NCBI GenBank assembly: GCA_005656395.1
Contig: SRSI01000004.1
Coordinates: forward strand, 744,001 to 808,000
Direction: 5' to 3'
Length of the DNA stretch: 64,000 nt
Source: Strongyloides papillosus
Taxonomy: Eukaryota; Nematoda; Chromadorea; Rhabditida; Strongyloididae
Position 1 is the stretch's first letter; every line of letters starts with the position of its first letter. Both the position numbers and the translations under genes were made by a program. Below the pieces are notes generated by a model that ran no database searches, had not been told where the DNA came from, and saw nothing but the letters and a program-made list of their open reading frames with translations. Below, piece by piece: positions 49,207-62,164 of this stretch.

Positions 49207-50049
49207 GCCACATTGGCTCACACTCAGAAGAGAATCCTCACCTTAAGGTGATGATTTTAAAAACATCACCTTGAGGTGAGGATTTTGTTTAGAATAAAGT
49301 ATACAGGAAAAATGTCTTACGAAGGTGTAACACAACATTGGAATTATATATCAAGTTGTCAAAACATTGTTATTTCGTAACTTTTTTCTACTAATTTTAA
49401 CTTATTAATATTTCTATTTTAGGTGTAAATTAAGGAGTGCCGACTAATTATTTATAAATAGAATAAACTACAGATAAAGATAAGTTTTTTTTTACTTAAA
49501 ATCTAAGTATTTTTTAGGCAATGCATGGAATTGTTACTTATATTTTAAAATCAACAGGAATATTCAAGTATACATGTAAGTTATTGTTTCAGTTAACATT
49601 TATAATTGTTTCTAGTTTGCAGGATAGGTGAATCTCACTATTTAGCATGCAGGTACGATTTATTGCCAATCTAGGTAAGTTTTACCACTATATTTATATT
49701 TATTATTTATTGCTTTTGTTGTCATTATCTTTCTTATATTTAAAGTTTTAAATATTCATTAAATTGTTATATCTTTATTTTATAATAAAAAATCTTAATT
49801 ATTACTTCTAATTGTTGAAATATAGCTATAAATAAGAACATTGCTATAAACAGATGTTCTAAGGCATTTTATTGGGGAAAGGTATCCCTTTTGTGTTTTT
49901 TTAAAATCATCACCTCAAGGTGATGAATTGGTATACGCACAAAAATCGACGAAATCATCACCTTGAGGTGATGCTTTCTTTCTGAGTGCAGTGGTAGTAG
50001 CGTCGGTCTTGTAAACCGAAGGTCGCTGGTTCAATCCTAGCATGTGGCA
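49207..50049 (+). tRNA. tRNA-Thr (TGT), split in the D arm by a 768-bp element
   Basis: The 5' piece is 49207-49220 (GCCACATTGGCTCA); the 3' piece runs from 49991 to 50049. Ignoring the element at 49221..49988 and one CA copy leaves a 73-nt tRNA. It has perfect acceptor pairing (GCCACAT/ATGTGGC), anticodon stem TCGGT/ACCGA with loop CTTGTAA (anticodon TGT), and T arm GCTGG-TTCAATC-CTAGC. Box B is intact; box A is cut after nucleotide 14. No second-site decay is evident in the stems. Confidence 0.9.
49221..49988 (+). mobile_element. tRNA-targeting TIR element, copy 1 (in tRNA-Thr)
   Basis: Ends are CACTCAGAA...TTCTGAGTG, with a 2-bp target duplication CA (49219-49220, 49989-49990). Each end carries two near-palindromic 16-18-bp sites of the form ATCACCT-NN-AGGTGAT: TCACCTTAAGGTGA and ATCACCTTGAGGTGA at the left, ATCACCTCAAGGTGAT and CATCACCTTGAGGTGATG at the right. 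Inside are GTAAGT/TTTTAG splice-like signals and short frames starting ATGTCTTACGAAGGTG (49312) and ATGCATGGAATTG (about 49525). Near-identical to the copy at 61369-62156 in inverted orientation. No transposase domain is recognised. Confidence 0.88.
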
Positions 50050-50829
50050 GTCTACGTTTTGTTAATACAACAGGAAATAGTACCGGAAATATATGCTAAT
50101 ATTTCATGTTTTCCAAAAATTTTAAACTAGTCATCATAAGCTTTTATTAAACACTTCTTTTAAAAAGTTGGACTAAGTTTAAATAGATTTAATTAGAAAA
50201 CCAGTATAAATAAAATTGAATCTTTTAAACAATTTATAAATCATCATATCTTATGTATTTTAAAATAACGTTATTTATATGTACAGTATTAAAACATAAA
50301 TGCAGATAGCAAAGATTTACAATAACTTAGATAATTAATATTAAAAAGCTTAATCAAGATGTTTAGTATAAACAATAGACAAAAAATCAATAATATGAAA
50401 TTAAAAAGTATAGAAAGATTCTTTATAGTAGTTTATAAGATCTTATTTTAAAAGTACAAAAGAACAAAATTTGTTCATAAAAAATTACAATATCTTTTTT
50501 TTCTAAAATACTATTCATATAACACTCCAACAACTATGGTTAACCTTATAATAAAAAAGTATTAATTCTGTCAAAATTTTAATGTTAAATATAATTAAAA
50601 ATTAGCAAAGTATTTTTATAAATGCATTTTTATTTCTTCTAGTATAGAAAATGAAAATCTATCGAATGACTATAGAAGATGGTAGATATTATTCCATTGC
50701 AAAAATTCATGTTGTACGCGCCAATAATTCGCAAAATTTATAAAGTAAAAAAGGTAATTTTTTATTAACATTCAAATATAAAATATCTATATAATTATAT
50801 AAATATTTATTAAAAATAAATAATTCGTA
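50050..50829. other. Intergenic; short frame near 50651
   Basis: Mostly featureless A+T-rich DNA. At about 50651-50743 a 30-codon frame begins MKIYRMTIEDGRYYSIAKIH and is less A+T-driven than the surroundings. It has no recognised family and may be a repeat relic. Confidence 0.3.
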
Positions 50830-51090
50830 AAAATGTTTTTATCTATCTTTATAGGGAGGTTAAATTACGGCAGTGCCAGTCAAAGAGAAGCCATAGGCTA
50901 AGTCTTATCAATAAGTGAATAGGAATTATGTGTTTTTTTCGGAAAAAATCATAAAAATTCACTCAAAAGAACAAATGCTGAAAATTCTTCAAAATATGTT
51001 TATTTATTATTATTTATGCTTAGGATACCTTTTATTCTAGAAAAAATCGCTCTAAATAGCAATTTTCAGCCAAACTGTTAAATCAAATAC
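50830..51090 (+). repeat. Dispersed repeat, inverted relative to 56240-56450
   Basis: ATGTTTTTATCTATC, ATTACGGCAGTGCCAG, TTTTTTTCGGAAAAAAT and AAAAATTCACT occur here in the same order as in the complement of 56240-56450. The other copy lies inside a terminal-repeat element (56187-56632), so this is probably part of a related, decayed element. Confidence 0.6.
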
Positions 51091-52355
51091 CTTCGCAATT
51101 CCTTTATTATAGAAAATTAACCGGCAAAATTAAGTAGCGGCGCGATTCGCTATATAGTCCTTAGACTAATGCCTCTTTTCTCGACTATAGTACTATTAAT
51201 TACAATTAAATTTTTAGAAAATTTTGACTAATCAAATACCGATTATTTCCTACATTGTTTTTAGTAATCAGGAAATTGTGCAATGTTTTATTATATTTTT
51301 AATAATCTTAATGTTTTACTGGAAAAATTATTTACAGTACAGACGAAATAATAAAAACAAATTATGAAATTCTTTTATAAAACGTAATAAAATTATTTGT
51401 AAAAAAATTAAATTTTATCAAAATTTTAATAATATCAAGCGACAAACAAAAAATGCTGTAAACGACATAAAATATTATGTCGCCAAATAAATTTTTTTGT
51501 TCTTTACAAAAATATATATGTTTGACATTTTGAAGTGATGTAACTTTTTTATTTTTAATATTTTCTATCATATTCTGCTCATCTTAGAGTTGCTTTATGT
51601 AATATATTATGAGATATTATTTTAGTATAATCCTTTTTTAAAAGTTAAAATATTTAAAAGTTTTTTACTTTGAACATGAATACATAATGTATTATAAATT
51701 TTTATAAATCTGATTTTATGAGTGATCATGAATGATATCATAAAAAAATTTGGTCGTCGGATGAGTACAACTTTATAGAAAAATACATTTTTATTATAAT
51801 TAAAATTATTAAAAAAAAGATACTGTTATGTGTTAGTAAATGCATTTTATAACAGTATTTACAATTTTTTTAAAATTAAAATATAATCTTGTATTTTGAA
51901 ATGTATCGTAGAAAACGAATCAATTTATAAGATAAAAATGATGTCATAAGAAAATGGCAATTATTTTAAAACTTTTCAAATTGTTGATTTTATTTCTAAA
52001 TACTAAATATTTGCTATGAAATTAGTGACATGTCAAAAAAAAGTTGTAATTTATTATATGAAACAACACAACTATATTTTATAAAAATTTTTTTTTTTTT
52101 AATGTATAATACATTTTTACGTAAATATTGGTGAGGTATTTTTTTCAAGCTTAGTGAGAAGATCAGTCAATATAACTTTCTTTTATTCATTAATTTTGGT
52201 TAATTTAACAATAAATTAGCTTACAAATAAATGATAAACAAATATTTTATTTCTCCTTAAATTTCAACATTATTAATATATTAACTGTATTATTAAATTA
52301 AAAAAAATTAGACAATGTGTAAGAATGCAAAAATTTGGTATTTCCACAATGTCAC
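51091..52355. other. Intergenic, no gene seen
   Basis: About 1.3 kb. A small island of higher G+C at 51130-51170 (GTAGCGGCGCGATTCG) could not be folded into a tRNA. An open frame at 51362..51571 (-) is of random composition. Confidence 0.4.
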
Positions 52356-61116: not shown

Positions 61117-61190
61117 GATTTCGTGGTGTAGTCGGTTATCACATCTGTCTAACACACAGAAGGTCGGCGGTTCGAATCCGCCCGAAATCA
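61117..61190 (+). tRNA. tRNA-Val (AAC)
   Basis: Acceptor GATTTCG/CGAAATC, anticodon stem TCTGT/ACAGA with loop CTAACAC (anticodon AAC), and T arm GGCGG-TTCGAAT-CCGCC. No intron. A T5 run follows within a few bases. Confidence 0.95.
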
Positions 61191-61300
61191 TTCTTTTTGA
61201 CAAAATATTGAAATTTTAAATAGTAAAACAAATTATTTTTTCAATTTTATCTTTTTGAAGTAAAAATCGTTAGACTTTGAGTATAATATCTCAAAAAAGC

Positions 61301-62164
61301 TGGCCATAGCCGGGTTCGAACCGGCGACATTCTGCGTGTGAAGCAGACGTGATAACCGACTACACCATCACCCAGAAAGGAAGCATCCCCTCAAGGTAAT
61401 GATTTCGTCGATTTTTGTGCATATACCAATTCATCACCTTGAGTTGATGATTTTAAAAAAATACAAGAGGGATACCTTTCCCCAATAAAATGCCTTAGAA
61501 CATCTGTTTATAGCAATGTTCTTATTTATAGCTATATTTCAACAATTAGAAGTAGTAATTAAGATTTTTTATTATAAAATAAAGATATAACAATAAATAC
61601 AAAATTATATAACAATTTAATGAATATTTAAAACTTTAAATTTAACAAAGATGATGACAACAAAAGCAATAAATAATAATTGTAAATATAGTGGTAAAAC
61701 TTACCTAGATTGACAATAACTCGTACCTGCATGCTAAATAGTGAGATTCACCTACCCTGCAAACTAGAAACAATTATAAATGTTAACTGAAACAATAACT
61801 TACATGTATACTTGAATATTCCTGTTGATTTTAAAATATAAGTAACAATTCCATGCATTGCCTAAAAAATACCTAGATTTTAAGTAAAAAAAAACTTATC
61901 TTTATCTGTAGTTTATTCTATTTATAAATAATTAGTCGGCACTCCTTAATTTACACCTAAAATAGAAATATTAATAAGTTAAAGTTAGTAGAAAAAAGTT
62001 ACGAAATAACAATGTTTTGACAACTTGATATATAATTCCAAAGTTGTGTTACACCTTCGTAAGACATCTTCCGTATACTAAATTCTAAATAAAATCATCA
62101 CCTCAAGGTGATGAATTTAAAAACATCACCTTGAGGTGATGATTCTGTTCTGAGTGATACGACA
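61301..62164 (-). tRNA. tRNA-Val (CAC), split near position 8 by a 788-bp element
   Basis: The 3' part (61301-61368) gives D arm, anticodon stem TCTGC/GCAGA with loop TTCACAC (anticodon CAC), T arm GCCGG-TTCGAAC-CCGGC and acceptor 3' strand TATGGCC-A. After the element at 61369..62156 and one AT copy are left out, the 5' acceptor strand is TGTCGTA (62164 downward), pairing 6 of 7 with two G-T pairs and a bad first pair. So this copy looks more worn than the Thr and Gly genes, or its 5' end has shifted. The gene lies 110 bp from, and convergent with, tRNA-Val(AAC). Confidence 0.75.
61369..62156 (-). mobile_element. tRNA-targeting TIR element, copy 2 (in tRNA-Val)
   Basis: Near-identical to the element in tRNA-Thr but inverted; its own plus strand runs on the minus strand here. 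The ends read CACCCAGAA and TTCTGAGTG, with an AT duplication (61367-61368, 62157-62158). The four symmetric sites are present, two with substitutions (CCCCTCAAGGTAATG, CACCTTGAGTTGATG). Differences from copy 1 are scattered single changes plus a small insertion near 61590. The internal frames beginning ATGTCTTACGAAGGTG and ATGCATGGAATTG and the GTAAGT sites are kept. Confidence 0.88.

Follow-up and report, generated by a model that had tools for sequence, protein, structure and literature searches.

What brings a DNA transposon, repeatedly, into the first part of a transfer RNA (tRNA) gene? The question is raised by a 64,000-nucleotide stretch of the Strongyloides papillosus genome (assembly GCA_005656395.1, contig SRSI01000004.1, positions 744,001 to 808,000 of the forward strand; hereafter the window), in which three elements, E1, E2 and E3, split genes for tRNA-Thr(TGT), tRNA-Gly(TCC) and tRNA-Val(CAC). 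We find that they are non-autonomous copies and that they come from two families, A (E1 and E3) and B (E2), within a related group of DNA transposons of the cut-and-paste type that numbers at least four families (A-D). With a probability of about 0.72, these families, RAG1/Transib-like members of the CMCT transposon clade, enter the start-proximal part of genes transcribed by RNA polymerase III (Pol III) as a class, docking on the Pol III machinery.

Removal of each element together with one copy of its target-site duplication restored tRNA-Thr, tRNA-Gly and a tRNA-Val with a decayed acceptor stem, the junctions falling after nucleotides (nt) 14, 15 and 8. The three splits near the 5' end described in an earlier note on this DNA are therefore real, with the reservation that the Val gene, though split by the element where the note placed it, is a decayed one. 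The uninterrupted Gly-TCC and Val-CAC genes in the ARAGORN list take their 5' ends from the elements. All left ends are CACTCA, and the right ends, read inward, are CACTCA in E1 and E2 and CACCCA in E3, in keeping with the CAC(T/C)CA ends and the 2-bp duplications (CA, AA and AT) that the same note had read. TCACCT-NN-AGGTGA palindromes occur in pairs, whose members are separated by 14 bp on the left side of the element and by 34 bp on the right; the pairs claimed near each end are present in E1, in E2 and at the left end of E3, while the right-end pair of E3 is mutated.

We searched the 58.2-Mb genome, and all genome-wide counts are lower bounds; L- and M-numbers denote loci of element copies found in these searches. 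Element copies are spread over many contigs, in different tRNAs and with matching 2-bp duplications, which rules out an assembly artefact, and palindrome pairs number at least 53, against 0 for the reversed pattern. Among 34 two-ended copies, the left end is CACTC in 33 and CACTT in the remaining one, and the right end is CACTC or CACCC in all. Of these 34, 29 carry a duplication of exactly 2 bp, most commonly TA (11), and L047 carries one of 3 bp; L006, L025, L036 and M048 have no match of 2 bp or more, and no copy has a match longer than 3 bp. Eight further two-ended copies gave matches in five, the others being L066, L077 and L078.

Joining the two flanks produced a tRNA spanning the junction in 18 of the 34 copies (16 of 31 after merging of duplicates; the anticodon of L024, counted among the 18, cannot be read), whereas joining random positions within the window did so in 5 of 3000 trials. 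Set against the 1.4 percent of this tRNA-rich window that is tRNA, the proportion has p = 5e-25. Together with the palindrome count, this puts the three insertions beyond chance, as had been proposed.

To class the targets we assembled 61 sites: copies with usable ends from the family A and B searches, 7 of 24 family C matches, and family D. The other 17 family C matches, which cover an inner stretch only, and L058, an internal fragment without ends, were left out. Flanks were compared with intact tRNAs and 5S ribosomal RNA (5S) genes of the same genome, box A and box B were then sought at the junction, and the tally was compiled by hand from both results. Duplicates were merged (L009/L010, L045/L046, M028/L029, L073/L074, L054/L081/L082), flank identity being verified for the first three pairs, the last of which shares 139 bp on the right and only 22 bp on the left. 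L066 was entered as two targets, two weak matches were included (M049, with a gap of 7 before the junction, and L036, with 18 matched bp), and the positions of M049, the right side of L066, L023 and L067 were assigned by eye.

tRNA genes or their remnants, of many isotypes, account for 37 of the 61 sites and 5S genes for three, every 5S flank starting at nt 12. Five more are tRNA-like sites that keep box A and box B, and three, with a short 5' flank alone visible, were left unclassed. Entry into the 5' part of tRNA genes is thus a recurrent habit across the genome; that most copies might lie outside such genes is not what the tally gives. In a null set of 4000 positions, the combined box score of L017 and L041 was reached by 0, that of L038 and M049 by 3 and that of L047 by 13; that of L069 was reached by 1 of 2000 null positions. 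L041, L047 and L038 are divergent tRNA-like targets with both boxes, possibly tRNA-derived repeats. An Rfam search of 16 loci gave 5S matches in five, the split copy at L054 being among them below cut-off; the microRNA matches in these loci were all below cut-off and mostly on the palindromic ends.

Positions and orientations at the 37 tRNA sites were read by hand from the flank comparison. The duplication starts at nt 6-10 in 19 sites, at nt 13-16 in 5 and at nt 19-24 in 11, with two outliers at nt 28 (L079) and nt 33 (L071). Taking as the left end the one nearest the transposase gene, toward which that gene reads (L065, L066, L067), this end faces the 5' end of the tRNA at 34 of the 37, L011, L022 and L084 being reversed. 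Most insertions fall near nt 6-24, but the target extends beyond box A of tRNA genes, as 5S genes are entered at nt 12 and two of the tRNA sites lie further in, at nt 28 and nt 33.

The likely movers of these families are the long copies, of which those of 5-6 kb are putatively autonomous. Family A is represented by a 6059-bp copy inside tRNA-Ile (L065, duplication TA) and family C by one of ~5.1 kb inside tRNA-Thr (L067:244-5367, duplication CA), with a second family C stretch of 2.1 kb at L068 (99.6 percent). The family B transposase lies in L066 (294-8363), between a tRNA-Gln flank on the left and a tRNA-Pro flank on the right with no common duplication; family D consists of a single element, whose transposase is broken (L069, duplication TG). 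The putatively autonomous copies encode a DDE transposase and a second protein. Motif order places the triad at D281, D372 and E636, with C395xxC398 and H611xxxH615 between the second D and the last E; the order D-D-C(2)C-H(3)H-E matches the CMCT clade, and the predicted transposase model fits RAG1 and Transib more closely than it fits P element or Hermes.

The CMCT clade comprises EnSpm/CACTA, Mirage, Chapaev, Transib, Plavaka, ESTA and Lanisha, with RAG1 related, and is described as sharing CA..TG ends, duplications within 2-5 bp, this motif order and the RAG1/Transib fold (PMC12730594). All of these traits were found here, and the transposase, as modelled, is best described as a RAG1/Transib-like DDE enzyme of this clade whose N-terminal region is rich in Cys and His. 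Neither the transposases nor the second protein of family A had a significant Pfam match, the family A transposase found nothing when its sequence was searched against the PDB, and a protein search returned a single database relative, from S. venezuelensis; P0003 compared with family B gave 89.8 percent. The motifs and model match argue against a new superfamily. The elements, which to the earlier note looked like a new or undescribed family, are of a known clade; the apparent novelty is that they aim at Pol III genes as a class, guided more by position than by sequence.

How might such an enzyme find its targets? A single family is found in tRNA genes of many isotypes and at more than one position, in a single orientation, and also occurs in 5S genes; beyond an A and a G, little sequence is shared among the 20 two-ended tRNA sites. 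Distance from the gene start is the common feature, which favours docking on the Pol III initiation machinery. We infer that the transposition complex would dock on TFIIIB, TFIIIC or Pol III itself rather than on one tRNA sequence, while the helical second protein would probably bind the paired subterminal palindromes, like TNPA in plant CACTA elements. Insertion gives a 2-bp duplication and falls mainly at about nt 6-24 of Pol III genes, these being tRNA genes of varied isotype and a few 5S genes, almost always with the left end pointing to the 5' side of the gene. Targeting seems to be directed by position or a host factor more than by sequence. The chances are about even that a RAG1/Transib-type transposase has acquired the ability to dock at the Pol III initiation complex, in several families existing side by side; these would be the first DNA transposons known to aim at Pol III genes (tRNA and 5S) as a functional class, by distance from the start and in fixed orientation.

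The strongest competitor, possible though distinctly less probable, is that the transposase or its Cys/His-rich part itself reads the conserved box A or D-arm DNA of tRNAs, as suggested for Dada transposons. Insertions do cluster at nt 6-24, which spans box A, and the five tRNA-like sites retain box A and box B; at 20 two-ended tRNA sites the second duplication base is A in 75 percent and the next base G in 65 percent, a weak preference that could contribute to targeting. At those 20 sites, however, no column besides the second duplication base exceeds 0.7 bit, and one family enters many isotypes at several positions. The 5S entry point at nt 12, where no box A is known to lie, and the tRNA entries at L079 and L071 are likewise poorly accounted for by direct reading of box A.

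Several results weigh against docking on the Pol III machinery. At 13 of the 61 sites no Pol III gene is seen, so that either targeting is not absolute or the sites have decayed. The chief difficulty for strict targeting is seven two-ended copies (L013-L016, L021, L027 and M048): ARAGORN found no tRNA within ~1.5 kb on each side, and their box scores were reached by 144 to 1639 of 4000 null positions. L013-L016 are family A copies 10-12 percent diverged from E1 with clean duplications, and L021 and L027 are likewise complete family A copies with clean 2-bp duplications and no recognisable Pol III gene. The 5S evidence consists of three events, all in family B; in each the 5S copy is mutated and only the right flank shows it. 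The unlike flanks of L066 mean that its two ends may come from different insertions, and the transposase model is of moderate confidence (mean pLDDT 62.4, pTM 0.57). The second-protein model (mean pLDDT 63.2, pTM 0.48) has no PDB fold match at E <= 0.001, so a DNA-binding role for this protein is suggested by analogy.

Survivorship, in which insertion is random and only copies in redundant tRNA or 5S genes are kept, is already disfavoured and very unlikely. Multicopy RNA genes may be tolerant, as argued for Dada (PMC3706591), and the 13 sites lacking a Pol III gene would fit; but the excess of spanning tRNAs over the tRNA fraction of the window and the orientation bias do not, and tolerated sites should extend to AT-rich intergenic DNA. 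Least probable of all is that the elements are Dada transposons, which are described as entering genes for tRNA (at nt 8-13, among other places), small nuclear RNA and 5S, but with 6-7-bp duplications, no terminal inverted repeats and each family bound to its own RNA gene (PMC3706591, PMC8869645), whereas here the duplication is 2 bp, the CACTC ends are inverted, single families enter many isotypes, and the C(2)C and H(3)H motifs and model match point elsewhere; a DxxH motif after the second D (D442, H445), of the C/DxxH kind that Dada carries, is present in 5/5 transposases and is also found in other superfamilies. The contrast with Dada drawn in the earlier note therefore stands, and Dada identity is rejected on duplication length, terminal repeats and the one-gene rule, the comparison being with published descriptions of Dada.

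Plant CACTA elements (En/Spm, Tgmt*) offer a parallel: a transposase with a second protein that binds subterminal repeats, asymmetric subterminal palindromes and non-autonomous derivatives, the Tgmt* duplication being 3 bp rather than 2 (PMC2613891). EnSpm/CACTA proper differs in the same way, with a 3-bp duplication against the predominant 2 bp here. The Mirage duplication is 2 bp. Yeast Ty1 and Ty3 and Dictyostelium TRE also target Pol III genes as a class, Ty1 via Pol III (PMC13269885). Those are retrotransposons, whereas the present elements are DNA transposons inside the gene. All three insert beside, not inside, their target gene.

Strict target choice is described as little known among DNA transposons (PMC8869645), and the tRNA-targeting DNA transposons that searches of the open-licence PMC literature brought up are Dada families. 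Targeting of tRNA or 5S genes by CMCT elements did not come up in those searches, with subscription papers, outside preprints and Repbase mostly beyond their scope; the words EnSpm, CACTA, CMC and Mirage are absent from the main text of a S. ratti small-RNA and transposon paper (PMC9203780). The targeting here seems to have arisen independently, within the clade from which RAG1 came. With it one can test how a RAG-like transposase comes to be steered to one class of genes, in what way Strongyloides loses tRNA genes and what lets a cut-and-paste element survive in a compact genome.

Judged by their identity, several copies are young: it is 98.8-99.3 percent among E1, L006 and L007 (inserted in genes for tRNA-Thr, tRNA-Asn and tRNA-Lys) and 99.3 percent between L039 and L040 (tRNA-Ser and tRNA-Asn). 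L006 and L040 occupy near-identical tRNA-Asn loci (matched flanks 96-99 percent), with different families inserted 2 bp apart. In the left flank of L043 another family B end lies a few bases upstream, one tRNA seemingly having been struck twice. The family A copy at L077:63-244, in tRNA-Gly(GCC), is a miniature of 182 bp whose flanks lack a piece of the tRNA between them, and at L078 pieces of two different tRNA-Gly genes are joined across the element. The unlike flanks of L066 and L078 resemble what one-ended transposition would leave; copies with unlike tRNA flanks also occur in Dada, and in Dada-tL were interpreted in that way (PMC3706591).

Features of the three elements and their split target genes (window positions)
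Feature	Positions	Strand
E1 (family A, non-autonomous, 768 bp, CACTCA...TGAGTG ends)	49221..49988	+
E1 target duplication CA	left 49219..49220, right 49989-49990	+
tRNA-Thr(TGT) split by E1, 5' piece, nt 1-14	49207..49220	+
tRNA-Thr(TGT) split by E1, 3' piece, nt 13-73	49989..50049	+
E1 left subterminal palindrome pair	49238..49279 (49238-49251, 49266-49279)	
E1 right subterminal palindrome pair	49910..49971 (49910-49923, 49958-49971)	
E2 (family B, non-autonomous, 935 bp)	52371..53305	+
E2 target duplication AA	left 52369..52370, right 53306-53307	+
tRNA-Gly(TCC) split by E2, 5' piece, nt 1-15	52356..52370	+
tRNA-Gly(TCC) split by E2, 3' piece, nt 14-72	53306..53364	+
E2 left subterminal palindrome pair	52388..52429 (52388-52401, 52416-52429)	
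E2 right subterminal palindrome pair	53227..53288 (53227-53240, 53275-53288)	
E3 (family A, non-autonomous, 788 bp, ~93 percent identical to E1)	61369..62156	-
Decayed tRNA-Val(CAC) split by E3, 5' piece	62157..62164	-
E3 target duplication AT	62157-62158, other copy 61367-61368	-
tRNA-Val(CAC) split by E3, 3' piece	61301..61368	-
E3 left-end palindrome pair	62098..62139 (62098-62111, 62126-62139)	

The family B interior in the window (52580-53066) contains short exon-like segments, strung together and bordered by sequences that resemble splice sites; a comparison of two copies showed them no more conserved than the intervening spacers, and we therefore claim no gene there. Elsewhere in the window, the product of the open reading frame at 127-2121 matches the C9orf72 protein of Strongyloides papillosus at 100 percent identity across 99 percent of its length, that of S. 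stercoralis coming next at 83 percent, which places the host in or very near S. papillosus. An intron-bearing tRNA gene lies on the minus strand at 59156-59276, labelled Met(CAT) by ARAGORN with introns allowed and tRNA-Leu-like by eye.
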